DNA from: a virus
IMG/VR virus record: IMGVR_UViG_3300009705_000095
Location: 1-26,291 of that record
DNA: 26,291 nt
Direction: 5' to 3' (one strand)
A model generated the notes under the pieces. It saw only the letters and a program-made list of their open reading frames with translations. It did not search any database and had not been told where the DNA came from. A program made the position numbers and the translations under genes. Within the stretch, counting starts at the first letter, position 1; each line of letters begins with the position of its first letter. Shown here piece after piece: positions 8,408-24,973 of the stretch.

Positions 8408-9571
8408 ATGAGTTGGATAACTCCAGAGTTACTCGATGCTCTCCGTATGGTAGAATCTAGTGGAAATAATAAAGCTGTATCCTCAGCTGGTGCTGTAGGT
8501 GAGTACCAATTCATGCCTGAAAATGTACATGATATGGGGTATGGTGTAGATAAGTTTGACCCCAAGAATCCCGAAGAAGCACGTAAAGCTGCAGCCCAAT
8601 ACTTAAGCGGTATGCAAGAGCATCATGGCTGGACACCTGAGCAAACCTTACAGGCTTACAACTGGGGTCCGGGTAACATGAAGAAGTACCTTTCCAATTC
8701 AGGATTAGACACTGATATAACTATGCCTGATGAAACTTCAAATTATGTAGGTAAGTTTTCCCAGTTTGGGTGGTCTCCTTCTGAAAAAGGAGGAATACAG
8801 ATTGCACAAGAATCTGTTAAACCAATAGATAATATACCAAGAGTTACAGCTGGACTTCCTAGTTTTTCTTTTGATAAGATTGTTGAAATGTTCAGTGATA
8901 AAAACACTGAAGAGACAAAACCTGTATCGGAGATAAAGAAAATGGCAACACAAGAAGCTCAGGCTTACTTTCAAGATTTTAAGACCTTAGATTCATTACC
9001 AAGTATGGACAGTCGTCTAATGGCACCTATGCAACAACTGGTTGAGGAAAAAGTAATACCTGTAAACAGCTATAGTCCGGGCGTAGATATGAATGAAAAC
9101 CCTAAACCAATGTATCCACTTGCTGGTGGATTAACTCAAGAACCACTTGATACGGGTCCAGCACAGTTTGCTGATATTGAAACATTATTTAATGAACCAA
9201 GAACATATGTACCTGCCAGCGGACGTACGGATGCATATAGTTATATTGATAATACTATACCACCACATGCCTCTGAGTTTAGTCAGGCTTATGTAGCACC
9301 TGCAGGTAGAGAACCAGCGGGAGTAGCTGTTGAACAACCTGCTTTAACTCTTGCACAACGTGGGGTAAATCCAAACGCTATATACCCATTACAAAATGGT
9401 ACAGTTGTAGATCAGTCTGGAAAACCTGTCAGGTCTGGTAACAATAATGTTATTGGTCTCCCAACACAGAACGCAGCTTACGCAGCCCCTGCTGGTGGTA
9501 AAGGCGCTAACGCAACACCTCAGTCAGCTATAGATCAGCTAACGGGTATCAAAGGATTTGGAGGTAAGTAA
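8408..9571 (+). CDS. virion lytic transglycosylase (SLT/lysozyme-like) with long disordered tail
   Basis: The product is 387 residues. Residues 1-100 form a lytic transglycosylase domain: VESSGN with catalytic Glu16, then SSAGAVGEYQFMP (25-37), a DPKNPEEA segment (51-58), and AYNWGPGN (83-90), the order found in the SLT family and in the N-terminal domain of T7 gp16. From about residue 120 the sequence is Pro/Asn/Gly-rich with low predicted order. The enzyme should cleave peptidoglycan glycan strands locally so the ejection channel can cross the cell wall. In T7 this activity is the first domain of the giant gp16; here it is a separate gene placed before the giants. The stop overlaps the next ATG by one base (TAATG). 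Confidence 0.85.
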   Translation: MSWITPELLDALRMVESSGNNKAVSSAGAVGEYQFMPENVHDMGYGVDKFDPKNPEEARKAAAQYLSGMQEHHGWTPEQTLQAYNWGPGNMKKYLSNSGLDTDITMPDETSNYVGKFSQFGWSPSEKGGIQIAQESVKPIDNIPRVTAGLPSFSFDKIVEMFSDKNTEETKPVSEIKKMATQEAQAYFQDFKTLDSLPSMDSRLMAPMQQLVEEKVIPVNSYSPGVDMNENPKPMYPLAGGLTQEPLDTGPAQFADIETLFNEPRTYVPASGRTDAYSYIDNTIPPHASEFSQAYVAPAGREPAGVAVEQPALTLAQRGVNPNAIYPLQNGTVVDQSGKPVRSGNNNVIGLPTQNAAYAAPAGGKGANATPQSAIDQLTGIKGFGGK

Positions 9572-12030
9572 TGTTACAAGATTTATTCGATGAACTATGG
9601 GGTAATAAAGCAAATGCTAACGCTTCCTTACGAGATAAGCTGGGACTACCCCCTCAGAAAAGCGTAATGCAAAAGAGTATCGATTCAAGGACAGGTGTTA
9701 ACTACCCACACTCAGATACAACACGACAAGCTATTCTTAGTGATCAGAAAGAGCGGCTACAGCAAGCACGTCAGGCAAAGGGTGTACCTAGTCAGTCATC
9801 TATCCCGAAGGCTACAGGACCTCAACAAATGAACCTACCTCTTGGAGGTGGTCAATCAGGTGCTTCTCAGTTTAAGCCACCATTCCAAGGACCATCTGTG
9901 CCACCTTCACCTCAAATGGATCTTGATTTTAATTCGACTAAGCCATCTGTTAAAGTACCTGTTAATAATAAACTACCTGTACCCACTAACAAACCTAACT
10001 GGGTCCCCGGAAGTAGCAGGGGTGCTAATAGTCCAGCAATGACTTGGTGGGATAATAACGCTAATGTTAAGACTAAAGCTGTTAACCCTGCAAGTGCAGC
10101 AGCCTTAGGTGTTACAGGTTTACTCCACTCGCCTATGCTTGGTAACCCTGAAGATAATGAAGAGTGGGTTGCATCTCAAGTTGAACGAGGTGTTTATCCT
10201 GAGGGATATACCTTATCAACTGTACGTTTAGAAAAAGAATTAACTAAAGATGAAGGTTCTGTCTCTGAAGATCTTACCAGTAAGTATGACGCTGCAGTGG
10301 GTAAACTTGCTGTGCTGGCAGAAGCTGGTGCAAGTCAAGATGTTCTTGATTCTGTTCAGAAAGAAATTAATCTTTTAGATTCTCAAATAAAGTCAGCATC
10401 AGGTGGTGGTCTTACTTCTAACTCTACTCAACTAGAGAAACGTAGGCAGGAACTACTTTCTGAAAAGAAAGATATAGATGCTAAAGTTTTAGAACTATCA
10501 AAGGGTAATATGTTTACTCAGTTAGGTATTATGGATGCCCCTAACGCTGAAGATATGAATAAGATACTAGACAATAGCGGAACCTTTGGTGTTAGTGTTC
10601 GTCAACAAATGACTAACAACGCACAAGCATTAGCAGACTTAGATAAGATACAAGCCATGCGTAAAACAACAGAAGATCTACAGACTAAGGTATCAGAAGA
10701 TACAGAGGTACAAGATCTCATAGCAGAGATGGAGAAACTAGGTCCAGAGGATCCCATTGACCCTAACTTAGGGGCTGAAGCGCAGATCAAGATTGAAAAA
10801 GTTTCCAAGGTAGTTACTAAAGGTTGGTTTGACGGTGTCGATCTTAGTAAGATGATGTCTGCAGCTGGTGACTTCTTAGGTGACATATGGGCTGACCCTG
10901 CTGTTAAGAGTGCGTTAACTTACTATGTAGGTTCTCGTCTTATGGGTTACTCTGCAAGTGGTTCAGGTATGGCTGCTGGTGAAGTATATGTTAAGGGTGT
11001 TGAACAACAGAATAAGATTGATGTGGTTAACGCTAAAGCTGACAAGGATGCTGCTATAGCTGCTAAGAAAGCTGCTCAACCTGACATGTCAAAGACTGTT
11101 GAAATGTTTGACCGTAACTCTAAGAAAATAGTTAGCGGTAATATGGCACCTAATGGAGACTTTTATCTTCCGGGATCTGACATAGCCTTTAACGCAGCTA
11201 AAGCTGGACTTGTCACATATAAGTCTGGACTTAAAGATCATAGAACCTTTGAAGAAATAGATAACGATATGATTACGTACTCTAACGATGCTGTTGTAGA
11301 TGCAATTTCACTTCTTGATGAAGAGTCTTTCCCTTATATTGACCAAGTAAAACGTTTGTTTAGTGATGGTCAAGCAGTCGACTCTATGGTTCTTCACGCT
11401 TCTCGTAGGTTAAAAGAGCAAGGTGTAGACTATGGTACAACTGCATTTAGGGCAGCACTTTCAGGTACTCTTAAAACTGAAATAGAAAAGATTGCAAAGA
11501 ATGGCGGTACAGATACTAACGAATCTATGATGAAGGATCTTATCGGTGCTGTTGAAGCTAACTGGCTTAAGTCTAATCTATTGAAGCAAGGTGCTGTGCC
11601 TAAGTTTGTATTAGGTAAGTACACAGATTGGGGTAAAGACGGTAAAGGTATGAAGTATGACAGTGACTTTGAGTTATCTTCTGTAGATACTTCAAAGTTG
11701 TTTAAAACAGCTTCAGGTATTAACGAAGCTTTTCTTTTGACTGCTGATGAAAAATATCCAAAGCAGATAGCTAAAAACCATAGCATCATAACTCAAACTA
11801 AAACAATACAAAAGTTAGCTATGATCTTTAAGAACGAGGTTATGACTAATAAAGCTGCAGCTAAACATTGGCAACAGATTGCAGATAAGACTGATTCAAA
11901 TGCTTTTAGTTCTTGGCTTCAAAGTTCAAGTATGGATGATGCTCAAGCCCCTAGTAAGTATAATGGTCTTAATCAAGAATCGATAATGTCTCAAGTAGAA
12001 AAACTCTATGACAAGCAGTTTAAAAAATAA
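9571..12030 (+). CDS. large internal virion protein, 819 residues
   Basis: This is a large late protein lying between the transglycosylase and the nuclease-bearing giant. Residues 1-150 are Pro/Gln/Ser-rich and probably disordered. Residues about 230-390 are long charged helices suited to a coiled coil (repeated L-x2-E/K patterns). A mildly hydrophobic Gly/Ala stretch lies around 443-480, followed by mixed helical sequence rich in Lys and Asp. No catalytic motif is visible. Size and position make it comparable to T7 gp15, which builds the middle of the ejection tube. Translation is coupled to the preceding gene through a one-base overlap. Confidence 0.7.
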   Translation: MLQDLFDELWGNKANANASLRDKLGLPPQKSVMQKSIDSRTGVNYPHSDTTRQAILSDQKERLQQARQAKGVPSQSSIPKATGPQQMNLPLGGGQSGASQFKPPFQGPSVPPSPQMDLDFNSTKPSVKVPVNNKLPVPTNKPNWVPGSSRGANSPAMTWWDNNANVKTKAVNPASAAALGVTGLLHSPMLGNPEDNEEWVASQVERGVYPEGYTLSTVRLEKELTKDEGSVSEDLTSKYDAAVGKLAVLAEAGASQDVLDSVQKEINLLDSQIKSASGGGLTSNSTQLEKRRQELLSEKKDIDAKVLELSKGNMFTQLGIMDAPNAEDMNKILDNSGTFGVSVRQQMTNNAQALADLDKIQAMRKTTEDLQTKVSEDTEVQDLIAEMEKLGPEDPIDPNLGAEAQIKIEKVSKVVTKGWFDGVDLSKMMSAAGDFLGDIWADPAVKSALTYYVGSRLMGYSASGSGMAAGEVYVKGVEQQNKIDVVNAKADKDAAIAAKKAAQPDMSKTVEMFDRNSKKIVSGNMAPNGDFYLPGSDIAFNAAKAGLVTYKSGLKDHRTFEEIDNDMITYSNDAVVDAISLLDEESFPYIDQVKRLFSDGQAVDSMVLHASRRLKEQGVDYGTTAFRAALSGTLKTEIEKIAKNGGTDTNESMMKDLIGAVEANWLKSNLLKQGAVPKFVLGKYTDWGKDGKGMKYDSDFELSSVDTSKLFKTASGINEAFLLTADEKYPKQIAKNHSIITQTKTIQKLAMIFKNEVMTNKAAAKHWQQIADKTDSNAFSSWLQSSSMDDAQAPSKYNGLNQESIMSQVEKLYDKQFKK

Positions 12031-12031
12031 C

Positions 12032-12036
12032 AGGAG
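12032..12036 (+). promoter_or_regulatory. Shine-Dalgarno site that decides the start at 12044
   Basis: AGGAG is followed after 7 bases by the ATG at 12044. An upstream in-frame ATG at 12008 lies inside the preceding gene and has no such site, so the shorter product (1341 residues) is preferred. Confidence 0.75.
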
Positions 12037-12043
12037 AAACACT

Positions 12044-15000
12044 ATGGCAAATGGTCTTGTAGTAGATCTAAGTTCTGCACTCTCACAACAAGAAGAGGCT
12101 ACTCAAGGCCCTAACCCCGTAGCCCAAGAAGACTTTTATGACTACGCTTCCCCACAACAGTATACTATTGGAGACACCTCATGGCGTTTCTTAGATGGTG
12201 ATACAATTAAAGACTCTGTAACAGGGGAGTCTGTCAGACTACGTGGTATTAACACAAGAGAAACTTCTAAGTTTCTTGAGGACTCTAGTTTTAAACAGGG
12301 AGAACTTGGTGGTGATGCAGCGACTGCTTACATCTGGGATCTCGCACAGAAACATGGCTTCACTACTGTTATAAAATCAGGAGAAAAAGGTCATCATGGT
12401 AGAGCTATGGGGGATCTTGTGGATAAGGATGGAAACTCTTTTGTAGATACCCTACTTAGGACAGGTGTTGCCAGCCCTTGGCATTTTTCAGATGACTCTG
12501 ATGTTTCATTGTCTAGTTGGGGTATTGCAGCTGAAGCTGGAAAACCAAATGAACCTACGGATTCTTACGAAAATGCAAGGCAAGCAATATATGAGGCAGA
12601 GACCGATCAGTATGGCGGCTTACCTATACAGAAGTTAATGGCATTTGATGCTGCTGAGTACCAAGCAAACCCAGAATTATATATGGGGATGAAGCAAATA
12701 AACAAAGGTGCTGACTATAAGGGTAGGTCTCGTACTCCCTTTGGTACTGGCTATGACACTGGTTTTGCAACACTATACAAGTCTCTTAACAGGCTTGGAG
12801 AAGCTCTTGCAAACAGAGTAGGTGCGGAGGAAACAGAAGCTAGTTTTGCTGCTGATGCTTCTGTTAATCAAGATTATATTAATGCATTACCTACTGTTAA
12901 AATGGATGTTACCGAAATTGATTGGACTTCTTTTGATGAGATAACAACAGGTATGTCAGGTATGCTGGGTACATCTCTGCCTTTTATGGGGGCAACAATG
13001 TTAGGTATGGTAGCAGCCCCTGCAACTTCGGGGACTTCTTTAGCCTTACCTGTATCAATGTACACAGGTATGGTTCTTGACACTATGGAAGGTAAGGTTG
13101 AAGATAAGAATCTTGGCATAGCGATAGTGGCTGGCGCTGCTATGACGTTCTTAGACAGGTTAGGTATCAAGGGTTTTGTATCTCCTTCGATGATGATTAC
13201 AAAAGAAGGTAGGGATCAAGCCATAAAAGCTATTGCTAAAAGTAAATCTATTAGTGAGGGTGAAGCATCTAAACTTCTCCTTAACTTCTCTAAGAAAGAG
13301 ATGTTAACTTACATTGATGACGCTAAAGCTTTTGGAGCTAATCAAATACTTAAAGGTAATCTGTTTAGGGAAGGTGTTAAGAGTCTTACTAAATCAACTT
13401 TGGGTGAAGGGGCTACGGAAGCACTTCAGGAATTAACAGAGTACACTGCTGCTGTTATTGGTTCTGAAAAAGAATGGGACTACGATGAGATAGAGAACCG
13501 TATGACTAATGCTATTGTTGCAGGTGGTCTTATGGGTGCTGGTTTTGCTACGCCCGGAGTTGCAGTTCAAGTAGGTGATTGGAAATCTATTGTAGATTTT
13601 GAAGGGGTTGATGATGGTAGGTTTGATAATATTAACACTAAGTACCGTAAGGAAGAAGAGTCTGAGTTTGGATACGTAAGATCTGTAGAAGAAGTTTCTG
13701 AGAAAGTACGTGCGGAGTATGACAAAAACTATACTGATAACAAAGGTGTCAAAGGTGATGACCATATAAATGACCTTGCGGATAAGCATAAACTTCCCGG
13801 AACTACAATTGAGCACATTAAAGCTTTTATACACAATCCTTTAGTAGCAGTAAGAGCAGCTGTTCGTGATACGTTTGCAGAAGCAATGGGTAAATCTAAA
13901 ACTGTTTCTCAGATTCAAGATATCATGGGATCTGTTCGTAATAAAGTTTATAGTGGTGCTGGTTATATTCAACAACAACAACTTATGATGGCTGAGTATA
14001 GAAAATATATTGGTGAAACAGAAACAGTTGAAGCATCTTTTGATGTACCTAAAGGTATGAGTTCTAAAGGCCGTACTGATTATGTTAGCACTATTATGTA
14101 TAAGTTTTACAGAGAGGTTGTGGAACCAGCTACTAAAGCTAACTCTAGTTGGGATTGGAGTAAGGCATCACCTGATGTTTTAGCTAGAAAGGATGCTATC
14201 ATTAAGCTTGATAGCGGTATCCGTAAAAATGCTGAGGCTTTACGTAATGGTAATAACAAAGCTAAGAAGTACACTGGTGAAGAACCTATCAAATTTCTAC
14301 CTGATTGGGGTTACAGGCATAAAGGTTTTAGAAAAGAATACATTGCTAGTCATAAGGATTTATTTATAAACACCTTGACATCTTCTTATGGAATGTCACA
14401 TGCTGATGCAACTGAATTAACTAATGCTATTATTAATGAAAATCAAGTATCTACTCTTGGCGATGCATTTGATATGACAAGGGGTGGTGTGTCTCCTTCT
14501 TCACAGAAAAGACGTACGATGCACATATCAGATAGGCCTGAGTTTGATCAGTTCTTAGAGCAGAATATATTTAAGAACATGGATGATGCTTCAAGAGAGT
14601 CTGCAAGGTTTCAAGTTCACCGTAAGTTTGTTGGAAAGGATTCCATATATATTAATAGGATGCTAGCTAACGTTCGCAAAGATCTTGATAAAACAATGAA
14701 GCCTGAGGATGCTAACAGACTTTTATATAAGATTGCATACAAGCTTCGTAACATGTTGAATGCCGAGTCTGGTAACTATAATCGTATAGAGAATGAATCT
14801 ATAAAGCAAGGTCAGAAATACCTTACGCTTGTAGCAACTCTTCAGGGTTTATCTAACGCTGCGTTCTCCTCTATGCCAGAGATGGCTATGCTACCACTAG
14901 GTGTATCTCGAGATGTTCTTGTCAAGAATGCAGCCACACAGGGTTATTTGTTTGGTGAGGCTGTTGGTTCATGGATACGTAACAACGCTGTTATGTTAAG

Positions 15001-16069
15001 GATTGCACAACCTCGAGAAGACCCTACAACTTATCTTGACAGAAAGATAGCTGAGGTTAGATCTAAAGGTGAAGCGGATCCACGTTACATTTTCTATACA
15101 AACATGAAACAATTGTTAAGAGAGACTGGGTTTAAAGCACAAGAAACAGGTGCCGCAACTACCACAGGTGTTCAAGAAACTAATGAGATGACTAAAGGTC
15201 TCACTGATGCATACTTTAAGGCTAACTTTTTACATGACCAGCAAGACATGCACCGTATGGTGAGGCTTTCATTATTCAATGATTTCCTTATTGAAAAGCT
15301 AGACTTAATTGAGTCTAAGAAAGGTGAAGAAGATACTGTTGGTGTGTCCGAAGCTAAGCACATGTTAAGGGAGCTAGGAATATCCTTGCACACTATAGCG
15401 CCTATTGCTAATATGTTAAAGGAAGGTAAGGAGTTATCAGCAAATGATGCTTCAAAGTATAAGCGTGAGTTTCTTAACGGAGCTGCTAACTTTGTTAACC
15501 AAGCTGTACCTTTACCAAACGCATTCAACAGACCACTGTTCTATAGTGACCCACGTTTTGCATTACTTACTCAGTTTAATGGTTTCACTTCTACATTTAC
15601 AGCTAACCAGTTGCCGATGTTATGGGATCAACTTAAAGGTAAAGGAAGTAAAGGTTTAACGTATGGTACTTTTGCAACTATGGGAAGTATGCTTGCTCTT
15701 GCATTTATATCTCAAGGAATTAAAGATGAACTTAAGTATGGGGAGACTTCACCGTACTTAACTGATAACCAAAAGATACAACGAGCTATCTATTCAAGCG
15801 GGTTATTAGGAACTACAGAGCGTGTAATTGGGAGTAACTTTATCTTTCCTCTATACGGAAATAGCAGCTACGGTCCGGGAGAGTTTGTATGGGATAACAT
15901 TGCAGGTGAAGCAGCTGCCACAGGTACAGTTGGTCGTGTCTATGGTATGCTAGACTCAGCAATACAGAGTGACGGTGACAAGTTTATGAAGAACTTCTAT
16001 GGAAGTTTACCATTTCTTGCACCTTACAAGCATAGGCTTATGCAATATCAGTGGGGAAAAGAGGAGTAG
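12044..16069 (+). CDS. giant ejection protein with N-terminal staphylococcal-nuclease-like domain
   Basis: The product is 1341 residues. Residues about 38-148 match the SNase/thermonuclease fold. LDGDTI (50-55) aligns with the calcium-ligand loop, VRLRGINTRE (64-73) with the strand carrying SNase Arg35 and Glu43 (here R65 and E73), and GHHGRAMGDLVDKDGN followed by a LLRTGVAS stretch (117-144) with the region of Arg87 (here R120). The ligand equivalent to Asp40 is N70 and the Pro before Glu43 is R72. The remainder is not recognised; it has hydrophobic stretches near 302-345, 486-505 and 1209-1224 and a C-terminus ending in basic/aromatic residues. The location among ejection proteins suggests it enters the host with the genome, carrying a nuclease domain of unknown target. 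The polymerase-bearing giant starts 3 bases later. Confidence 0.78.
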   Translation: MANGLVVDLSSALSQQEEATQGPNPVAQEDFYDYASPQQYTIGDTSWRFLDGDTIKDSVTGESVRLRGINTRETSKFLEDSSFKQGELGGDAATAYIWDLAQKHGFTTVIKSGEKGHHGRAMGDLVDKDGNSFVDTLLRTGVASPWHFSDDSDVSLSSWGIAAEAGKPNEPTDSYENARQAIYEAETDQYGGLPIQKLMAFDAAEYQANPELYMGMKQINKGADYKGRSRTPFGTGYDTGFATLYKSLNRLGEALANRVGAEETEASFAADASVNQDYINALPTVKMDVTEIDWTSFDEITTGMSGMLGTSLPFMGATMLGMVAAPATSGTSLALPVSMYTGMVLDTMEGKVEDKNLGIAIVAGAAMTFLDRLGIKGFVSPSMMITKEGRDQAIKAIAKSKSISEGEASKLLLNFSKKEMLTYIDDAKAFGANQILKGNLFREGVKSLTKSTLGEGATEALQELTEYTAAVIGSEKEWDYDEIENRMTNAIVAGGLMGAGFATPGVAVQVGDWKSIVDFEGVDDGRFDNINTKYRKEEESEFGYVRSVEEVSEKVRAEYDKNYTDNKGVKGDDHINDLADKHKLPGTTIEHIKAFIHNPLVAVRAAVRDTFAEAMGKSKTVSQIQDIMGSVRNKVYSGAGYIQQQQLMMAEYRKYIGETETVEASFDVPKGMSSKGRTDYVSTIMYKFYREVVEPATKANSSWDWSKASPDVLARKDAIIKLDSGIRKNAEALRNGNNKAKKYTGEEPIKFLPDWGYRHKGFRKEYIASHKDLFINTLTSSYGMSHADATELTNAIINENQVSTLGDAFDMTRGGVSPSSQKRRTMHISDRPEFDQFLEQNIFKNMDDASRESARFQVHRKFVGKDSIYINRMLANVRKDLDKTMKPEDANRLLYKIAYKLRNMLNAESGNYNRIENESIKQGQKYLTLVATLQGLSNAAFSSMPEMAMLPLGVSRDVLVKNAATQGYLFGEAVGSWIRNNAVMLRIAQPREDPTTYLDRKIAEVRSKGEADPRYIFYTNMKQLLRETGFKAQETGAATTTGVQETNEMTKGLTDAYFKANFLHDQQDMHRMVRLSLFNDFLIEKLDLIESKKGEEDTVGVSEAKHMLRELGISLHTIAPIANMLKEGKELSANDASKYKREFLNGAANFVNQAVPLPNAFNRPLFYSDPRFALLTQFNGFTSTFTANQLPMLWDQLKGKGSKGLTYGTFATMGSMLALAFISQGIKDELKYGETSPYLTDNQKIQRAIYSSGLLGTTERVIGSNFIFPLYGNSSYGPGEFVWDNIAGEAAATGTVGRVYGMLDSAIQSDGDKFMKNFYGSLPFLAPYKHRLMQYQWGKEE

Positions 16070-16072
16070 CCG

Positions 16073-19000
16073 ATGGCTAAATTTACACAAGCAATTAGTA
16101 ACACTGCTGAAAAGGGAGTTGCGTTGTCTGACAACGTATCCCTTAAAGCAAAGATTAGGAACCAGTTAAGTTTAGCTAATGAAGGTGATAGCGTCATTGA
16201 CGATAACGTTATTAATGACCAAGAGCAACCAGCTACACCAGATGGTAGTAGATTTTATAACACGCAGTTGACTGAAGCTATGCCTTACACTAAAGGTATA
16301 GTGATGGAACCTGAGAAGGTTACCGAATCTGAAGCTTTGGAACTTGAGTCTCGTCAGAGAGACTTAGAAGCTGATCAGTCTTTGCAGCAGCTACATGGGA
16401 CCAGCCTTGGTGATTATAGTCCTGACGATATCACTAAGATTGCTGGACCTATCGCAGCACCTTTCATTATAAACTCTATTAAGAGACTTCAAGAGACAGA
16501 CTCTTTGTTCATACCTCTTGATGAAGCTAGGAAAATGAAGTCTGTCAAAGGTATGTTAGGTCTTAGGTCTGAACCTGAACCTGAAACTGGGGTTTCTGAT
16601 CCATCTACAATATATGAACCAGCAGATGATAAGACTTGGGTAGACAAGGATAATACAATACCTTTAACTTCAGCCGAACTATTTGGCCACATGAATGGAG
16701 TTAGGTTTTCATTTGACTCTAGAGTTATGGAAGTTCTACCAGATTTACAGGTATTATCTTTAACACTTATGGAATCTGTGCTTAGTAAGCAAACAGAACA
16801 AGAGTCTATGATTTCTCAGGAAATGATTGACAACTTTTCTAGAGATGAGATTAAAGACATAGTAGGTCTTACTTCTGAAGAAACATCTTCTGGTATTTCA
16901 GAAGAACAGATAGGGCGTACTCTTTCAGAAGAGTGGCTTAAATTCCAACAAGTTCAGGAACTAGGGATGGACACTGTACCTGACGCTCATCTTGATCCAC
17001 AAAACGAGATGACCAAGGAGGCTTATGAGAAGCTTGGCTTATGGGCTAAACAACTTTATTCCTTAGGTAATCCAATTATGTATCAAGCTGTTCAAGTTAA
17101 AACTGGTAATGGTAGAACCCGTGGGGACTACCTTGTTACACCTCTTGGTCGTAGGATTTTAGGGGAAAACAAGAGACAGCTCATGCCACCTAAAGTGAGG
17201 TCTAGGCCTCAAGTAAGTGACAAACCTCAGGTAACAAACCAGTATTCAAATGTTAAAGAGAAAACTGGTAATCATTACGAAGACCCTAAACAAAGTGCAC
17301 AGGATAAAAGAAAACCAAAATCACCTGAAGCACAGATTAGGGTTAACACATCTAAGGTTCGTCATGTTATCACACCAGTACGGTTTAAGTCTGGTATGCT
17401 GTTAAGTCTTATGGGTTTAGCTGCCGCTGCAGATAGAAAGATAGTCAACGGTATGTTGGTTGTTGTAGGTAACGCTGCTGAGATTCTTGGTATAGGTCAA
17501 AAGACTGCAGATAGTATTAGCAATATGTCGCGGGATGCTCTGTATCGTGTTGATAGTATGTTAGTTGAACTGTCAACTTTTAAAAACCTAAACCACCCTA
17601 AGGTTGCACAGTTGAACCGTAAGATTGAAATCTTAAGGGCTTTTGCTGCTGAGTCTTCTACCGATGAATTTAAGATTAGAATGTACGATTTTAGATCAGG
17701 TCAGGTTCTTACGATGTTGCAAGATATTGCAGAGTTTAAGGATGATCCTATTAGTTTTGCTAACTATATTCAAAAGGGAACATCTCGTCTTGGGTACAGC
17801 CCACAGTCAATGAACATGCAAACACATAAACTTGCACGACAATTATATGGCAGTGGAAATTCATATCAAATAAAGCCCGGAAGTAATTCCAATGCTGAGT
17901 TTGCCATGCTTGTAACTTGGGGTGCACATTTCTTTGAAGAGTCTAATGTTGTACCTGAGCAGATGATGGCTAACATGCGAAAGCGTATTGCTATGAAAGA
18001 TGACAAGCTTATGTCTATTGCAAGTGTTGGTAAAAAACTTAAAGAGATCCTTAATAATTATGATTCGGACTCAACCAGTAATGCTATCCTTGCGATGCAG
18101 CAAGTGGAGAATCAAATTCAAGGTGTAGGTAATGTTCTTAAAACAAAAGCTGAGTTCAATGCTGACAGTGAAGTTGTTCGTTTTATGGATGAAATATTTG
18201 AACATCCTAATGAGGCTATTAACTTAGTTGAAGAAGCTATCGAGCTTGGCAGGTATATGGATACAGTTGAACGTGGCGGTAGCTTCTCTTCGTCTATGCG
18301 CCCTGTTGAAGTTGACGGAATCACTAATGGCCTTGCAAGTATGGGTGCTCAGTTGGGTATTGGAGAGATGATGTATCGTGTTGGAGTATTACGTGAGAAC
18401 CCAACTAAAGTTCTTGCAGAGTACGAGGGGGTTGAGGGTAACTTACGTGAAGTCCTTTCAAAGAATATGCGCAGCACGTTACCTGATGTTCTTAATAGTA
18501 TACAGTTTAGGGAGAAGTTTAAAGGTCTTGATATTGAGTACTTACCTGAGCTTGAGAACATACTTGCATTAGCTTTTAACAATACTGATGACTTCTTAAA
18601 ATACCCTTTGATGACTTTACCTTATGGTCAAGCGATCAAGAGTATGATCTCTATGATGATGGATGTGGTTACCAAGGACCCTTCGCTTACTGAGATTGCT
18701 TCTAGAAGGAAAGGGGGTGTGCCAGAGTTGTCTCAAATTCTTCATTTTATTCTTGAAAAGAATCTTATGGAAACTTTGAACCCAGAGATGATTGCTTTTA
18801 CCCATAGAGTTAAACAGCTAACCGAGTTAGGTATGTTAGTTGATGAACCTATACGCTACAAAAAAGCAACAGGTATCTACACTTCAATCAACACAGTAGA
18901 TTATGTACCACGAAAAGGTGCACCTGTTATCTCTGAAATAAAAGAGAAGTATGTTAAACCTAAAGGCGATTACGTGTATGGGGACCCTAGTAAAGAGTAC

Positions 19001-19801
19001 CCATCTGTTCTTGGAAGCACTCGTCTTACAAGGAATAAGTATCAACCTACTAGTTCAGAGCAGAACTCTCTTGGACTAACCCCTGATGGTGGTTGGAAAG
19101 TGGAACAGAGTATACTACCCCAAGTTATCATTGGACTAGACGGGGCTACACTTGCTGTTGCTCTTTCTGATTCTAACTATCGACAGTTACAACATGCTTC
19201 TGGGGTTGACACTCCTTATGTTACTACTATATACGATGCTGTTATAGGTGACCTTGGTTCTTTTAAACCACTAACAGAGTTAGTTAATAGGTCTTGGAAG
19301 AAAGTAACCTTTGAGTATGATTTAATAAAGGAACTAGCTGACGGGGCTAATGAAGCGTTAAGTCGTGGTGGTGAGAAGCTTAAGGCTGAAGCTCTTAACA
19401 ATCCTAAGGGATTGAGAGAGAACGATGCTCACTCTGCTTACTTGCTTGATAAGGGCTATGATATGATAAGGTATCGGCCAAAGAATGCTAAGGGTAAACA
19501 AGGTCCTTTAACAGATGGTATGGAACACATAAGGAGTATTCAACAAGATACGACTGCAAGGTTTGATGTTCTGTCTGATAAAGAAAGGAAATTGTTTTCT
19601 TCCAGAGCTAGTATGCTTACAAATCAACAAGCTTACGATCTGTTTAGAATAACTTCTCAAGGTTTGGGCAATGTCTTACAAAGCATGTACACTTCTGCAG
19701 CTACTGCAAAGAAAGGTAGGTCTGCTATTTTGAAAGCACTTGGACCTAACCCTGTGTTTCAATACCATGTTGATGCAATTAAACGTTTTAACTTTAACTA
19801 A
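16073..19801 (+). CDS. putative virion-packaged single-subunit RNA polymerase (N4 vRNAP type)
   Basis: The product is 1242 residues, the last late gene. The C-terminal half carries the motif set of T7/N4 RNA polymerases. Motif A is RPVEVDGITNGLASMG with D748. Motif B is KYPLMTLPYG with K843-x7-Y851-G852, the same spacing as T7 K631/Y639 (KRSVMTLAYG). A PQVIIGLDGATLAVAL stretch matches the T7 PNFVHSQDGSHL region. Motif C is TTIYDAVIGD with D1055. Motif A to B is 95 residues (94 in T7). A possible counterpart of the T/DxxGR element lies near 569-591 (GTSRLGY then NMQTHKLAR). The Arg four residues before the motif B Lys is D839 here. The first 400 residues are acidic and unrecognised. Location with ejection genes implies packaging in the virion, where it would start early transcription on entry. 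The motif match is visible; packaging is inferred. Confidence 0.8.
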   Translation: MAKFTQAISNTAEKGVALSDNVSLKAKIRNQLSLANEGDSVIDDNVINDQEQPATPDGSRFYNTQLTEAMPYTKGIVMEPEKVTESEALELESRQRDLEADQSLQQLHGTSLGDYSPDDITKIAGPIAAPFIINSIKRLQETDSLFIPLDEARKMKSVKGMLGLRSEPEPETGVSDPSTIYEPADDKTWVDKDNTIPLTSAELFGHMNGVRFSFDSRVMEVLPDLQVLSLTLMESVLSKQTEQESMISQEMIDNFSRDEIKDIVGLTSEETSSGISEEQIGRTLSEEWLKFQQVQELGMDTVPDAHLDPQNEMTKEAYEKLGLWAKQLYSLGNPIMYQAVQVKTGNGRTRGDYLVTPLGRRILGENKRQLMPPKVRSRPQVSDKPQVTNQYSNVKEKTGNHYEDPKQSAQDKRKPKSPEAQIRVNTSKVRHVITPVRFKSGMLLSLMGLAAAADRKIVNGMLVVVGNAAEILGIGQKTADSISNMSRDALYRVDSMLVELSTFKNLNHPKVAQLNRKIEILRAFAAESSTDEFKIRMYDFRSGQVLTMLQDIAEFKDDPISFANYIQKGTSRLGYSPQSMNMQTHKLARQLYGSGNSYQIKPGSNSNAEFAMLVTWGAHFFEESNVVPEQMMANMRKRIAMKDDKLMSIASVGKKLKEILNNYDSDSTSNAILAMQQVENQIQGVGNVLKTKAEFNADSEVVRFMDEIFEHPNEAINLVEEAIELGRYMDTVERGGSFSSSMRPVEVDGITNGLASMGAQLGIGEMMYRVGVLRENPTKVLAEYEGVEGNLREVLSKNMRSTLPDVLNSIQFREKFKGLDIEYLPELENILALAFNNTDDFLKYPLMTLPYGQAIKSMISMMMDVVTKDPSLTEIASRRKGGVPELSQILHFILEKNLMETLNPEMIAFTHRVKQLTELGMLVDEPIRYKKATGIYTSINTVDYVPRKGAPVISEIKEKYVKPKGDYVYGDPSKEYPSVLGSTRLTRNKYQPTSSEQNSLGLTPDGGWKVEQSILPQVIIGLDGATLAVALSDSNYRQLQHASGVDTPYVTTIYDAVIGDLGSFKPLTELVNRSWKKVTFEYDLIKELADGANEALSRGGEKLKAEALNNPKGLRENDAHSAYLLDKGYDMIRYRPKNAKGKQGPLTDGMEHIRSIQQDTTARFDVLSDKERKLFSSRASMLTNQQAYDLFRITSQGLGNVLQSMYTSAATAKKGRSAILKALGPNPVFQYHVDAIKRFNFN

Positions 19802-20681: not shown

Positions 20682-20687
20682 TCCTCT
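20682..20687 (-). promoter_or_regulatory. Shine-Dalgarno site overlapping the RNA polymerase stop codon
   Basis: AGAGGA (- strand) sits 7 bases before the ATG at 20674 and overlaps the polymerase stop (20686-20688). It favours this start over an in-frame TTG at 20692. Confidence 0.65.
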
Positions 20688-22932
20688 AACAAAAGAAATA
20701 ATCAGAGGAGATGATCTCAGATATATCTAATGACCCTAGCTCTGGTTGTTTAAGTTTATAACCCTCTCGGGTCTCTAATAGCATCTGCTCTATAGCAGTA
20801 AAGAAGTTATCACTGTTATACATCATAGCAAATTGCCACTTGGTGTGGTCTATCAATTTATTTATATCACATGCATGAGTTGAAAAGGAATCATGTATAG
20901 CTCCAAAGTCTCCAGAGAAACTCTGAACAACTTTAGCCATGTGAGCTGCGTCCATTGAATGGATAAAATTAGGTGAGCATCCAGATGCAAACGATCTCCT
21001 ACACGGTAACAAGTTACCATTGGAAGTGATGTAAGGTATCTTAATGCTATGACCTATCTGACCAAGACCACGTATGGTACTGCGTACAGTGATGTTCTTC
21101 TGTCTCCACACTTCGTACAACACTGGGAATCCTGAAGGAGTTGTCCAACGTGTACATGTGTTACCTGATGACAGTATGTGGTCAGTCATCTTCTGTATAA
21201 ACTTCATAGTTTTCAAGGGACCCACACAAGTATCATTGATTGAAAGTATAAGTTGTTTTGACAGAGAGGTACAGTCATCTTCTGTAATATTATACTCCGT
21301 GTCATACCCTTCAACCTTACAATCATAATACATGTTAGCTGCAATCTTCTTTTGACCAGCTGAGTAAGCCCTTGTCATTGACCCACGCTTTGCTATACCT
21401 TTTCGTATAGCTTTCATTGGCATGTTACGACCTTCAAACCACTCAGGCATTCTCTCTGTAAGACGCTTGGCTACTTGGACATAGAAGTCCTTCTGTATCT
21501 TACTAGGTACTAGGGATACTAGTTCGCCAGCTTGCTTGTCTTTAGAGATAGCTGCCAGATGTTGCCATCCATTGTTACTCCCATCAACAGGGATAGGTAG
21601 TCTACTCATATGTACAGCACCTTCAAGTACGGAAGTGCCGTACCCCTGAACATCTAAGCAACATGCAAGAAAGCTAACTGGTTTTTCTGCTTCTGTTCTG
21701 AAGCTCTGTCCATCCGCTAATTGGTTTATCCAAGTCAGGTTGTTTAGGGTCCACAACTCTCTGTCCTTTAGCGTCATCTTGTCTACTGAAATTGTGTATA
21801 ATCCTTCGTCTTGAAGATAGGTTCGGTAGTCCGCTGTTACCCATGTTGGTAGTTCCTCTATATCATAAGATTGATTATAAGAACAAGCTGTGTGTATGCA
21901 TAGCCATCTGTACCCCTCGGTATCCATAGCTTTTGCATAAGCAAACTCAAAGAGTCCCTTGGATACATCAGAACCTTGGTAGTTTAAGAATGGTTCTGTG
22001 TAGTACACACGCCCACGATAGTCACACTCTACCATTTGATAGAAGTCACGTAGTCCTATGGCATGTACCTTAGCAATTACGAACTTCATCTCTATAGCTT
22101 TTGACTTAGCTTTTATAGACTGATCCTCAAGATCTATGAACAACCCTAGGTTAGTCTCTAAAGCCTTGGCTACTGTACTGTTAAGCCTCCAAGGTGTCTG
22201 CTGCAGCTTGTTAAGAGCAGTAATAAAAGGTGCTCCTATAAGCTGCTTAAAGTCTTCCTCTGAACTCATACGTTTAATGTATGGCCTCTTGGTGAACTCA
22301 TTACGCAGTGACACTATGTCTTTTGGAGGGGTGAATGACGTACCTATAAGCGTACTCTTTATATACTCAGGGGGTAGGTCACCAAGGGTAGCCCATGTAC
22401 TTAGTAACTTTATAATGTACGGTGCACGGAACCCTTCGTACTCCCTTTCAATATGTATATAACCAAGTTGAAAGAAAGCTTCTAGGTATAGGTCACCTAC
22501 TGCAAGGATCTCCTGATGGTTAGTGTTTAGTACACCTAAAGCAGACAGCACCTGTAAGCCTATCACAGACGATGTAACGGTTAGTTTAAAGGGGTTTGAT
22601 GATGACCTCCGGGACTTCTGATAAGCTGCCACAGCACCTGCTACGGCCCTTACAGTGAGCTTCTCGTACGTGTATCCGTAGGGTATCATTGAAGATATTA
22701 ATCTGGCCCCTTCCGGGGGCCTCCCACGAAATGAATTACCCTCACATCTTTCCTTTATGTACTCTGTTATACGCTCTACACCAGCAGAGTTATCCAGTGT
22801 ACTCGAGGAAGTCCTCTTGTCCTCTGAGTCTGTTGGTTTTGGTATCGTAGTATGCTGATCCGCAGTCTCCAGTGCGTCCTGTGAATCGTGACTTAAGTAC
22901 TCGGAGTTTAATTGTGTTTCGTTCATCTTCAT
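20686..22932 (-). CDS. T7-like single-subunit DNA-directed RNA polymerase
   Basis: The product is 748 residues (T7 RNAP is 883, so the N-terminal domain is shorter). Landmarks in order are DYRGRVYY with DxxGR at 304-308; motif A PIPVDGSNNGWQHLAAISKD with D450; motif B AKRGSMTRAYS with K515 and Y523; SPNFIHSMDAAHM, matching T7 PNFVHSQDGSHL; and motif C AIHDSFSTHA with D681, 67 residues before the C-terminus (71 in T7). The protein ends in aromatic residues (DYFFC), comparable to the T7 FAFA foot. The Arg four before the motif B Lys is K511 and the Gly after Tyr is S524. It would transcribe phage genes from its own promoters. The start lies 143 bases inside the primase-helicase gene; no better in-frame start with a ribosome-binding site is visible downstream. 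The distal position in the operon is unlike T7, where this gene comes first. Confidence 0.95.
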   Translation of the reverse strand: MKMNETQLNSEYLSHDSQDALETADQHTTIPKPTDSEDKRTSSSTLDNSAGVERITEYIKERCEGNSFRGRPPEGARLISSMIPYGYTYEKLTVRAVAGAVAAYQKSRRSSSNPFKLTVTSSVIGLQVLSALGVLNTNHQEILAVGDLYLEAFFQLGYIHIEREYEGFRAPYIIKLLSTWATLGDLPPEYIKSTLIGTSFTPPKDIVSLRNEFTKRPYIKRMSSEEDFKQLIGAPFITALNKLQQTPWRLNSTVAKALETNLGLFIDLEDQSIKAKSKAIEMKFVIAKVHAIGLRDFYQMVECDYRGRVYYTEPFLNYQGSDVSKGLFEFAYAKAMDTEGYRWLCIHTACSYNQSYDIEELPTWVTADYRTYLQDEGLYTISVDKMTLKDRELWTLNNLTWINQLADGQSFRTEAEKPVSFLACCLDVQGYGTSVLEGAVHMSRLPIPVDGSNNGWQHLAAISKDKQAGELVSLVPSKIQKDFYVQVAKRLTERMPEWFEGRNMPMKAIRKGIAKRGSMTRAYSAGQKKIAANMYYDCKVEGYDTEYNITEDDCTSLSKQLILSINDTCVGPLKTMKFIQKMTDHILSSGNTCTRWTTPSGFPVLYEVWRQKNITVRSTIRGLGQIGHSIKIPYITSNGNLLPCRRSFASGCSPNFIHSMDAAHMAKVVQSFSGDFGAIHDSFSTHACDINKLIDHTKWQFAMMYNSDNFFTAIEQMLLETREGYKLKQPELGSLDISEIISSDYFFC

Positions 22933-24418
22933 CTTCTGCCACTAAGTTACGAGAGAATGTTATTATATCAAAGCTGATCTGTTTAATCGAACCAGAACCT
23001 TTGATGTCATCGATAGACGATAGGTGTCCTTCTTCAAAGGACTTACCTTGTGACTTCCTAAGGTGGCTTATCAAACCTAGCCATACGTTATGCTTCTTGA
23101 CTATCTTTAGAAGGTCAGACATGACTGAATCTATAGCTTCGTTACCTGTCTTTCCATCAGCCCCTTCAGATACTGCAATGGTGATATGATCAAGAATGAT
23201 ATACTGGCACCCAAGTAAGCATAGGTTTTCAATTTGATCAATGAGACTAGAATCCGAAACCGCACCGTTATGGTCAAGTAGGATGAGTCTTTCATTCCCA
23301 AATACTCTTTCAAATGCTTTACGTTCTTGCTCAACAGTCGGGTCTGTAGGAGTAAACATCTTGATAAACTTCTCTGCAGAATCCCCAATGCTTTCTTCAA
23401 GAGATACAAGGCCAATGACTTCATCTGTATTATCCTCCAATTCTAATATTATTTCTTTGATCATGGTAGATTTACCTGACCCTGTACCAGATGTGAACAG
23501 TACAATCTCACCCTTACGCATACCATCTAGCTTATTGTTAAGACCTTCAAGACACTGAGGGTATGGTACAGACTTAACAGACTTACGTTCAACATATGCT
23601 TCCCAGATAGCTTCACCACGTACAATAGCTGCTGGTGTGTACCTTCGTGCGTTAAACACAGCAGTTATGATAGCACTGGGGTTAGACATAAGTGTGTCAC
23701 ATGGATCATTATCAGGCAGTGATGCTACTTTAGTTTTATCCCAACCAATTATCTTGGCTGCTTCTGCTACTGCTTTTTCTCCAGCATCATCTTGATCAAA
23801 CATTAAGATTACTTCTTTGAATGATCGTAACCAATCTCGGTTAGCCACAAGTATCTTCATGTTAGATGAGGATGGTAGGGATACCACAGGATATACTTTC
23901 TTATACTTGATAAGCATAGCTTGTTGTACTGCGATAGCATCTAACTCACCTTCAGTTATGATTACTTTTAATCCACCGGGTTGGAACTTAGATTGACCAA
24001 ACAGTTCAAGCTTGGCGTTCTTAAGGTCACCTACAACTCGGAACTCCTTAGGTAAAGTCCTCTTCTTATATGCAACTGTCTTACCTTTGACTGTGTATGG
24101 GTAGTAGTGTGCATTAACTGTTCCGTTAGAGTCATAAGATATTTTCATATCATACTCATCACATGCAGTCTTAGTTAGGTTACGGTCACGTACTCCCGCA
24201 CTGTCGTAGTTGTGTATATCTTGAAGTGAATCTCCACTCATATCGTACTCTCGTTTGGTATTCGGTTTAAACTTTGACACTACGGTGTCGTCATATTGAT
24301 CTAGGAAAGCTGGCTTGTTACATGCAAAGCACTTACCTCTTCCATTGGACCATAGTGCTACTGCATCTGATGATCCACAATGTACACATGGATAGTGTTT
24401 AGTAAAGGTTGCACCCAT
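22790..24418 (-). CDS. T7 gp4-like primase-helicase
   Basis: The product is 542 residues from ATG 24418. A zinc-binding domain has C11-x2-C14 and C30-x2-C33. The TOPRIM primase domain has ITEGELD (E156-D160), MFDQDDAG (D208-D211) and a CDTL segment (240-243). The helicase domain has Walker A SGTGSGKST (310-318), a conserved SLEES (339-343), Walker B YIILDH (D410), H3 ISHLRKSQGKSFEEGHLSSI and the C-terminal KSRFTGRTG (509-517) carrying the candidate arginine finger R511. The protein would unwind DNA ahead of the DNA polymerase and lay down RNA primers for lagging-strand synthesis. All domains are intact and the length is close to T7 gp4 (566). The last 47 codons also encode the N-terminus of the RNA polymerase in another frame. 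Confidence 0.97.
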   Translation of the reverse strand: MGATFTKHYPCVHCGSSDAVALWSNGRGKCFACNKPAFLDQYDDTVVSKFKPNTKREYDMSGDSLQDIHNYDSAGVRDRNLTKTACDEYDMKISYDSNGTVNAHYYPYTVKGKTVAYKKRTLPKEFRVVGDLKNAKLELFGQSKFQPGGLKVIITEGELDAIAVQQAMLIKYKKVYPVVSLPSSSNMKILVANRDWLRSFKEVILMFDQDDAGEKAVAEAAKIIGWDKTKVASLPDNDPCDTLMSNPSAIITAVFNARRYTPAAIVRGEAIWEAYVERKSVKSVPYPQCLEGLNNKLDGMRKGEIVLFTSGTGSGKSTMIKEIILELEDNTDEVIGLVSLEESIGDSAEKFIKMFTPTDPTVEQERKAFERVFGNERLILLDHNGAVSDSSLIDQIENLCLLGCQYIILDHITIAVSEGADGKTGNEAIDSVMSDLLKIVKKHNVWLGLISHLRKSQGKSFEEGHLSSIDDIKGSGSIKQISFDIITFSRNLVAEDEDERNTIKLRVLKSRFTGRTGDCGSAYYDTKTNRLRGQEDFLEYTG

Positions 24419-24423
24419 TAGTT

Positions 24424-24429
24424 CCACCT
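24424..24429 (-). promoter_or_regulatory. Shine-Dalgarno site that decides the start at 24418
   Basis: AGGTGG (- strand) ends 5 bases before the ATG at 24418. The upstream in-frame GTG at 24427 lies inside this site, so the ATG is the likelier start. Confidence 0.65.
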
Positions 24430-24484: not shown

Positions 24485-24973
24485 TCAATCCGTTGTTGCT
24501 TTTTCTCCTTTGGTTTTAATAAGTAATCTTCCGCTTCTGTAGATTTCGTCAAGTCTTGTTTTTGTTTCATTTGTTATTGCTTCTTTTGGAATGAATTTAA
24601 CTGCACCTATTTGTCTGTTAAGGTACAGAGGTACACCCTCAGGGCATTTCTCTGTAAGAACATCTAAGTACCATTGAACTTTACATTCTGCTGCTGAGAG
24701 TCCTCCCCTTGTCTCAAACAATTGTATCATTTCATATGATAACTCTGACCCATCTTCCTTTAGGTCATTAATATGTTTGGAGGAACTTGTGTACGACTTC
24801 CAGTTAGACTCCTTGTCTCTCTTAGTTTTCTTGTAAGAGTGGAACTGTTTCTTACCTACGTATCTGATTGGGTTACCGTCTGGTACAGATACAGTTATAA
24901 GATATATGAAACCAAAGTAATCGTCAACAACAAATGGATCTCCTTTGTAGTCCCAGTGTCCTAGATTAGCCAT
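24485..24973 (-). CDS. GIY-YIG-like endonuclease
   Basis: The product is 162 residues. FGFIYLIT (20-27) and IRYVGKKQF (36-44) fit the GIY and YIG strands of a GIY-YIG nuclease core. Downstream come WKSYTSSSKHI (58-68), usual in phage members, and SAAECKVQWYLDVL (93-106), which carries a candidate catalytic metal-binding Glu96. Several phages have such a protein among replication genes, annotated as an endonuclease, although its job is rarely tested; options are a junction-resolving enzyme (no T7 gp3-like gene is seen in the window) or a homing-type nuclease. It is placed between the exonuclease-side small gene and the primase-helicase, starting 13 bases before the upstream stop, with GGGGAG 7 bases ahead. 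Confidence 0.75.
   Translation of the reverse strand: MANLGHWDYKGDPFVVDDYFGFIYLITVSVPDGNPIRYVGKKQFHSYKKTKRDKESNWKSYTSSSKHINDLKEDGSELSYEMIQLFETRGGLSAAECKVQWYLDVLTEKCPEGVPLYLNRQIGAVKFIPKEAITNETKTRLDEIYRSGRLLIKTKGEKATTD

Follow-up and report, generated by a model that had tools for sequence, protein, structure and literature searches.

A probable compact RNA polymerase of the N4 virion type at the end of a phage late operon

The window analysed in the present study is a 26,291-nt stretch of viral DNA (IMG/VR record IMGVR_UViG_3300009705_000095, positions 1 to 26,291), and its rightward late operon closes with an intact open reading frame (ORF) for a 1242-aa protein that contains no cysteine. What does such a protein do at this place? 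An earlier note, made from the sequence alone, had proposed that it is a virion RNA polymerase (vRNAP) of about one third the size of the phage N4 enzyme, and the size relation is correct (1242 compared with 3500 aa). Not mentioned in that note is a second polymerase of the window, an ordinary T7-like RNA polymerase (RNAP) of 748 aa encoded on the opposite strand. Our computations revealed homology of the 1242-aa protein to the catalytic domain of N4 vRNAP, retention of the catalytic residues, a single-subunit RNAP fold and, across its family, an almost complete lack of cysteine. As the best explanation of the evidence as a whole, the gene very probably encodes a compact single-subunit RNAP of the N4 virion type.

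Profile homology, catalytic residues and predicted fold

IMG/VR was scanned with the 1242-aa protein, with the 748-aa RNAP and then with the growing family, and these scans returned 121 homologous ORFs longer than 600 aa (many of them representing one contig fetched twice), 117 of which had at least 900 aa. After removal of near-duplicates, 35 non-redundant members were left, the window protein counted, with identities to the window protein as low as 18%. All 35 members share R572, R589, D748, G749, G753, K843, T848, Y851, G852, Q853, D1055 and D1060. These invariant positions include motif A (D748), motif B (K843-x7-Y851-G852) and motif C (D1055), which were found exactly where the earlier note had placed them. 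Some members had been found by a scan using motif B and motif C peptides, and the conservation among the 35 is therefore biased when taken alone; D748, K843, Y851, G852 and D1055 were also present in 26/26 sequences of a set containing 22 fetched via the 748-aa RNAP gene. Eighty loci were fetched via the 748-aa RNAP alone: 51 carry a homologous ORF longer than 350 aa beyond the RNAP, and in the remaining 29 the contig stops within 1,878 bases of it.

The 35-sequence profile was compared using hhalign with a profile of 11 N4-like vRNAPs (N4 gp50 residues 998–2103 plus L179–L188; L and G numbers are our own handles). This profile–profile comparison gave a Prob of 98.7 and an E-value of 1.8e-16, and the controls gave E-values of 0.27 (reversed N4 profile) and 0.49–0.98 (eight column-shuffled profiles). 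In the default alignment, family residues 554–867 were paired with N4 407–694, a range already containing the counterparts of N4 R424, D559, K670 and Y678, and an alignment with a lowered threshold ran from 471 to 1094 of the family and from 350 to 989 of N4. The pairs R572/R424, D748/D559, K843/K670, Y851/Y678, G852/G679 and D1055/D951 in this longer alignment are all identical. Against a T7-like profile the family gave an E-value of 0.0042, and the N4 and T7 profiles matched each other at 1.2e-8; after seven more distant members were added, the E-values of the family became 4.5e-20 to N4 and 9.1e-6 to T7. The motif spacing, which the earlier note had described as close to that of T7 RNAP, is 95 residues from A to B and 212 from B to C, compared with 94 and 181 in T7 (D537, K631 and D812) and 111 and 281 in N4 mini-vRNAP (D559, K670 and D951). 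Motif spacing is thus nearer T7 and the sequence profile nearer N4. In addition, the family motif A, EVDGITNG, fits ExDGxxxG, the motif A signature used for N4 vRNAPs (PMC10654107; here and below, papers are cited for the parts of their text that were available). The difference between the N4 and T7 profile values supports the assignment of the predicted enzyme to the N4 type, beyond a mere relationship to T7 RNAP.

An AlphaFold2 model of residues 90–1242, based on the 35-sequence alignment, had a mean pLDDT of 83.3 and a pTM of 0.81, and it places D748 in a short strand and D1055 between two strands. Every one of the PDB matches listed by Foldseek (the best 50 of 185, E up to 10) was a single-subunit RNAP, as was every one of the 50 listed in the VIA structure comparison. 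The model was aligned with T7 RNAP over 514 residues (Z 24.9, 3.5 Å), yeast mitochondrial RNAP over 675 residues (Z 24.2, 4.8 Å), N4 mini-vRNAP (2po4) over 753 residues (Z 20.6, 7.3 Å) and N4 gp50 over 778 residues (Z 17.5, 7.3 Å). The predicted fold is the right-hand fold of single-subunit RNAPs. The first and last residues aligned with such enzymes were 90 and 1232, and there is therefore little room for further domains. The profile comparison and the structure prediction, both named as checks in the earlier note, bear out the polymerase identity, together with the matching of the catalytic residues.

Several observations weigh against an N4-type polymerase. The D1055/D951 pairing lies outside the default alignment and was seen only at the lowered threshold, the motif B arginine (N4 R666) is replaced by an aspartate residue (D839), and the Foldseek TM-scores were moderate (0.32–0.43 by query length). 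N4 gp50 consists of an N-terminal domain (NTD), the RNAP and a C-terminal domain (CTD) that autoinhibits the enzyme (PMC12633501, a preprint), and the large NTD and CTD are absent from our protein, with no room for either in 1242 aa. Nothing relevant came from searches in Pfam, PHROGs and PDB sequences (single-sequence and HMMER-profile) or from tblastn against 50,697 phage records; no Pfam family, RNA_pol (PF00940) included, was matched by the 1242-aa protein at E-values of 10 or less, and three distant family members were likewise without a match in PHROGs. HMMER-level matches to the PDB (E 0.098 and 0.98) and Pfam (E 0.03–0.28) were taken as noise. The motifs could then be a chance resemblance in an unrelated ejection protein, as the lack of a relevant HMMER-level match in any library searched might suggest. 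However, the N4 profile match stands out from flat controls and the Z-scores exceed 20 for several RNAPs, and we consider a coincidence of this kind to be next to negligible.

The family reaches further, to the cultured Roseobacter phage CRP-7. Gene order around the convergence point of the late and replication genes is similar in CRP-7, where gp33, a 'hypothetical protein', occupies the matching genome place, and the 1353-aa protein encoded just before our gene matched CRP-7 gp34 at E 2e-17 in a two-sequence comparison. Direct comparison of the window protein or its family with gp33 gave no match until intermediates were used. Among relatives with a more distant large terminase gene (TerL), the family was found in 7 of the 20 records searched, many of which are short. 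Seven distant ORFs encode 1134–1265 aa; six are without cysteine and one has a single cysteine. Of these, L364–L368 came from the profile search, L369 was reached with the CRP-7 gp33 family as the query and L371 was recognised by its motifs. For the profile of the seven, the E-values were 1.2e-39 to the window family, 4.4e-11 to N4 and 5.6e-12 to the CRP-7 gp33 family. For the gp33 link, the controls gave 0.51 (reversed) and 0.12–0.81 (six shuffles), and the E-value without L369 was 7.7e-9; L369 alone matched the window family at 0.0036 and the other six distant ORFs at 3.3e-18. Residues D678, R766, Y774-G775 and D979 of gp33 align with motifs A, B and C. Through these intermediates, and on sequence evidence, CRP-7 gp33 belongs to the predicted polymerase family. 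A structure model of the gp33 relative L014, made from 6 sequences, reached a pLDDT of only 37.5, and tblastn with three intermediates found no match in phage records. The profile A9 gave no match in ICP2, SIO1 or HMO-2011; N4 and T7 were missed as well, which makes this negative uninformative. The available text of PMC6918029 describes the CRP-7 RNAP gp30 and mentions no virion polymerase.

The motif B lysine, invariant in the window family, is an arginine in CRP-7 gp33 (R766, L004) and in L364. This exchange, together with the lost motif B arginine, would suit an ejection protein descended from a virion RNAP that no longer polymerises and serves only as part of a DNA conduit. However, both catalytic aspartates, K843, Y851, G852 and R572 are invariant in 35/35 members down to ~18% identity, a conservation not expected of a dead enzyme, and several relatives have hairpin elements in their early regions (see below). 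Loss of activity is therefore, in our estimate, very improbable, and an active polymerase is preferred. Judged by these comparisons, the compact N4-type polymerase gene of this marine phage is real, unannotated and present in many ocean phages, CRP-7 among them.

Position in the late operon, cysteine content and packaging

The gene is the final rightward late gene and directly follows those for Cys-free proteins of 387, 819 and 1353 aa, the first of them with a lytic transglycosylase (SLT) domain (Table 1), in agreement with the location after probable ejection proteins that the earlier note had described. A leftward module encoding a MazG-like protein, the 748-aa T7-like RNAP, a primase/helicase and a 5'-3' exonuclease converges on it. 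The N4 gp50 gene is in a matching place, being the final leftward late gene and converging on the remaining genes.

The cysteine content was then compared between proteins. The polymerase family has 1 cysteine in 43,666 residues (none in 34/35 members), and homologues of the 1353-aa protein longer than 700 aa have none in 64,417 residues (48/48, near-duplicates counted). The co-encoded T7-like RNAP family has 18.8 cysteines per 1000 residues and the primases have 18.1 per 1000. Cysteine is also absent from N4 gp50 and from CRP-7 gp33, gp34 and gp35; CRP-7 gp30 has 14. The lack of cysteine in vRNAPs has been suggested to ease passage through the tail and periplasm (PMC3715699). From the gene position, the transglycosylase-bearing neighbour, the near-absence of cysteine and the hairpin elements in some relatives, we infer that the protein is packaged in the virion.

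Position and composition alone point to the virion, and an active polymerase might instead be made late and act inside the cell without being packaged, similar in function to N4 RNAPII. However, the T7-like RNAP that the phage already encodes has 14 Cys, a cytoplasmic composition, whereas the candidate shares the absence of cysteine with the ejection-type proteins beside it and with N4 gp50. Furthermore, its gene closes the late structural operon, and by sequence profile it is closest to the virion enzyme of N4. An unpackaged enzyme thus seems unlikely to us, and the virion-type polymerase is favoured.

Table 1. Features of the window, with positions, strands and supporting observations
Feature	Position	Strand	Observation
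Probable compact virion-type RNA polymerase ORF	16073..19801	+	Intact, 1242 aa, 0 Cys
R572	17786..17788	+	Aligned with N4 mini-vRNAP R424; 35/35 members
Motif A catalytic Asp D748 (VDGITNG)	18314..18316	+	Corresponds to N4 D559; 35/35 members
Motif B Lys K843	18599..18601	+	Corresponds to N4 K670; 35/35 members; Arg in CRP-7 gp33 and L364
Motif B Y851-G852 (KYPLMTLPYG)	18623..18628	+	Corresponds to N4 Y678-G679; 35/35 members
Motif C catalytic Asp D1055 (IYDA)	19235..19237	+	Corresponds to N4 D951 in the low-threshold alignment only; 35/35 members
387-aa Cys-free probable ejection protein, SLT domain	8408..9571	+	Pfam SLT E 3.4e-16
819-aa Cys-free probable ejection protein	9571..12030	+	Position, no Cys; no Pfam match at E 0.01
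1353-aa Cys-free probable ejection protein	12008..16069	+	PHROG 6958 virion structural protein E 7.1e-17; CRP-7 gp34 homologue
748-aa T7-like RNA polymerase, replication module	20686..22932	-	PHROG 414 E 1e-103; Pfam RNA_pol E 7.6e-53; 14 Cys
Primase/helicase, marker of the replication module on the opposite strand	22790..24427	-	PHROG 239 E 2e-142

Two resemblances in the window were noted by eye. The first 150 residues of the 1353-aa protein look like a staphylococcal-nuclease-type domain (FLDGDTIKD...VRLRGINTRET), with no Pfam match at E 0.01, and a 162-aa protein encoded at 24485-24973 on the minus strand looks like a GIY-YIG-type endonuclease (FIYLI...RYVGKKQFHSYKK).

Early-region hairpins and a candidate promoter of the T7-like enzyme

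In long contigs of relatives (39–60 kb), an intergenic region adjoining TerL separates the early (+) from the late (-) genes, both of which are directed away from it (the G005 copy of TerL matched PHROG 2 at E 1.6e-28). TerL-anchored loci gave 27 non-redundant early regions of relatives with 80,170 bases, the window's own early region not being among them. A recurring element was found in these regions, consisting of a perfect hairpin with a stem of 5–7 bp (mostly 5–6), a 3-nt T-N-Y loop and GG[T/A] 11 nt past the loop. There were 24 such elements on the early strand and none on the opposite strand, with a mean of 0.375 and a maximum of 2 in 40 Markov shuffles, and GG spacings other than 11 (range 6 to 17) gave 0–4 matches each. 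The closing pair is C-G in 23/24 elements, with nine different inner stems, and in L214, L221 and L246 one element is located 63–64 nt ahead of the first early ORF.

In agreement with this, and outside the 27 regions, the same hairpin scan of the first 4.7 kb of N4 found 11 hairpins, three of them with a T-N-C loop and GG[A/T] 9 nt past the loop (GTTGC.TTC.GCAAC ttatGGACA, AAGAAGC.TCC.GCTTCTT ttGGATG and AAGCTGC.TCC.GCAGCTT ttGGTAA). N4 has three start sites in its leftmost tenth, with inverted repeats around -11, and -10G and -12A paired in the loop (PMC4496689). The three T-N-C hairpins fit P1, P2 and P3, an identification made here from their places. Taken together, the hairpins are probably promoters of the compact polymerase in part of the relatives.

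Other results speak against this promoter assignment, or limit how far it reaches. Only 13/27 early regions contain at least one element. Both the hairpin rule and the T7-like core described below were defined on the very sequences in which they were counted, and the count of 24 is not independent because the rule was derived from those regions. Applied to phages with a more distant TerL, the frozen rule found 0 elements in their 24 early regions; it is thus not general across the wider family, although family members were found among distant records (nine were searched with the 35-sequence profile and five matched, later also G011 and G019, with only partial overlap with the 24 regions). Of the relatives with an early region, the one closest to the window protein is G005 (61%); its hairpin (GAGACA.TAC.TGTCTC) is in the right place, 66 nt before the first ORF, yet without GG at +11. 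CRP-7 has no element before its early genes, and its two rule matches are both inside gp29, the primase gene. One rule match in G004 falls within a late gene. The family polymerase and an early-region element occur together in G002, G006, G010 and G007 (L239), the polymerase occurs with an element-free early region in G004, G005 and G021 (L254), and the early region of G003 is interrupted by the contig end.

Hairpins of the type CTCAC-TNC-GTGAG in repeats of G002 and G006 were rejected as promoter candidates, having no GG at +11. Upstream of TerL in L221 (G002 9990–10470, reversed orientation), five copies of a repeat with a 73-bp period, each with such a hairpin, precede the early genes; the G002 hairpins are enclosed in an outer CAGACA/TGTCTG stem, and such repeats are also present in L246/G006 and L242. 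Many contigs among loci L210–L285 stop ~200–1000 bases upstream of TerL, in the region of early/late divergence, a pattern that genome ends or repeats left unassembled at this place could produce.

The 748-aa RNAP had CRP-7 gp30 as its best-scoring named match (39% identity). A T7-like core, AGTACCTTATAG (mostly as ATCTTTTAAGTACCTTATAG), was defined by scanning these very records for repeats and was found in 7/7 relatives scanned (G001–G006 and G010), with 22 matches of at most 1 mismatch against a shuffled expectation of 0–0.8 per record. Ten exact copies in six records face the late operon, one or two in each; the late genes of G006 lie beyond the sequence piece scanned. Seven matches (0–1 mismatch, one per record) are located 25–40 nt before a middle-region gene of 148–167 aa, and five of the 22 are before neither the late operon nor this gene. 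The core has no copy in the window. Judging from its sequence, the ATCTTTTAAGTACCTTATAG motif, which we take to resemble a T7-type promoter, may be read by the 748-aa RNAP.

A separate observation concerns G010 (54,067 bases), in which the RNAP gene is divided between both contig ends, one part having several stops in the matched frame; this suggests that the assembly is circularly permuted and faulty where its ends were joined.

Relation to known polymerases and significance

With N4 gp50 and mini-vRNAP, the protein shares a homologous catalytic domain with its catalytic residues, the ExDGxxxG motif A, the absence of cysteine and the gene position at the end of the late operon, and part of the relatives also share hairpin elements whose 3-nt loop is T-N-C/T. 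It differs in its size, with only a short N-terminal extension and no room for a CTD, in missing the motif B arginine that N4 has, and in the loop-to-GG distance, which is 9 in N4 and 11 in the relatives. Furthermore, N4 has gp15/gp16 where the window phage has a single-chain 748-aa T7-like RNAP. In effect, the polymerase would resemble a natural stand-alone mini-vRNAP without the membrane-linked NTD and autoinhibitory CTD of N4.

The fold is shared with T7 and mitochondrial RNAPs, and the motif spacing is near that of T7; however, the Gln-His following motif A in T7 is absent here, and the sequence profile reaches T7 only at the E-value given above. Motif C is HDS in T7, YDA or FDA in the family (YDE in two members) and HDA or HDS in distant members. 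CRP-7 gp33 has in common with our protein the family (via intermediates), the genome place, the lack of cysteine and the neighbour gp34, but differs in having no direct sequence link, in its motif B arginine and in the lack of hairpin elements before the early genes.

A large Cys-free helical late protein has been proposed as a vRNAP outside Schitoviridae in StenR_269, DES1 and Zobellviridae (PMC10747016). As described there, the proposal rests on size, absence of cysteine, helix content and low-confidence models, and we liken it to our protein by description only. N4-like vRNAPs have 2,842–3,820 aa in reference genomes (PMC10654107), and that of Alteromonas phage R22Y has 2,083 aa (PMC11705849). 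The IMG/VR survey in PMC10654107 discarded candidates of <2,500 aa, and compact polymerases therefore could not appear in it. Among the matches listed from the open-access literature, with subscription journals and most preprints outside its scope, there was no report of a compact N4-type vRNAP, the closest being the proposal in PMC10747016 and the R22Y enzyme, and the available parts of PMC12629253, PMC10386132 and PMC12324425 contained nothing bearing on one.

We propose that the polymerase, as the final member of the ejection-protein set, may be made late and packaged, and that it would be threaded into the host together with the DNA or immediately behind it, there to start early-gene transcription independently of the host polymerase. 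The promoters that it reads would, in part of the relatives, be DNA hairpins (5–6 bp stem, 3-nt T-N-Y loop and GG 11 nt past the loop) upstream of the early genes, and the 748-aa T7-like RNAP would then read the middle and late genes from the conserved ATCTTTTAAGTACCTTATAG-like promoter. For comparison, T7 early genes need the host polymerase. The late genes of N4 also need it (PMC4496689). It appears to us an evenly balanced question whether, in widespread marine podophages outside the known N4-like phages, all transcription is carried out by two phage single-subunit RNAPs, an injected mini-vRNAP on early hairpins and a T7-like RNAP on middle and late genes, with the host polymerase needed at no stage and the N4 NTD and CTD lost or never gained.

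If the reading as a compact virion polymerase is true, giant size would be unnecessary for packaging, ejection or early transcription, and ejection, tethering and autoinhibition would have to work without the NTD and CTD of N4, the roles of which could be studied against enzymes without them. Since CRP-7 has been cultured, the family link to this phage opens packaging to a direct test. Finally, the T-N-Y-loop hairpins, with their different spacing, would provide a second system for promoter recognition via DNA hairpins.

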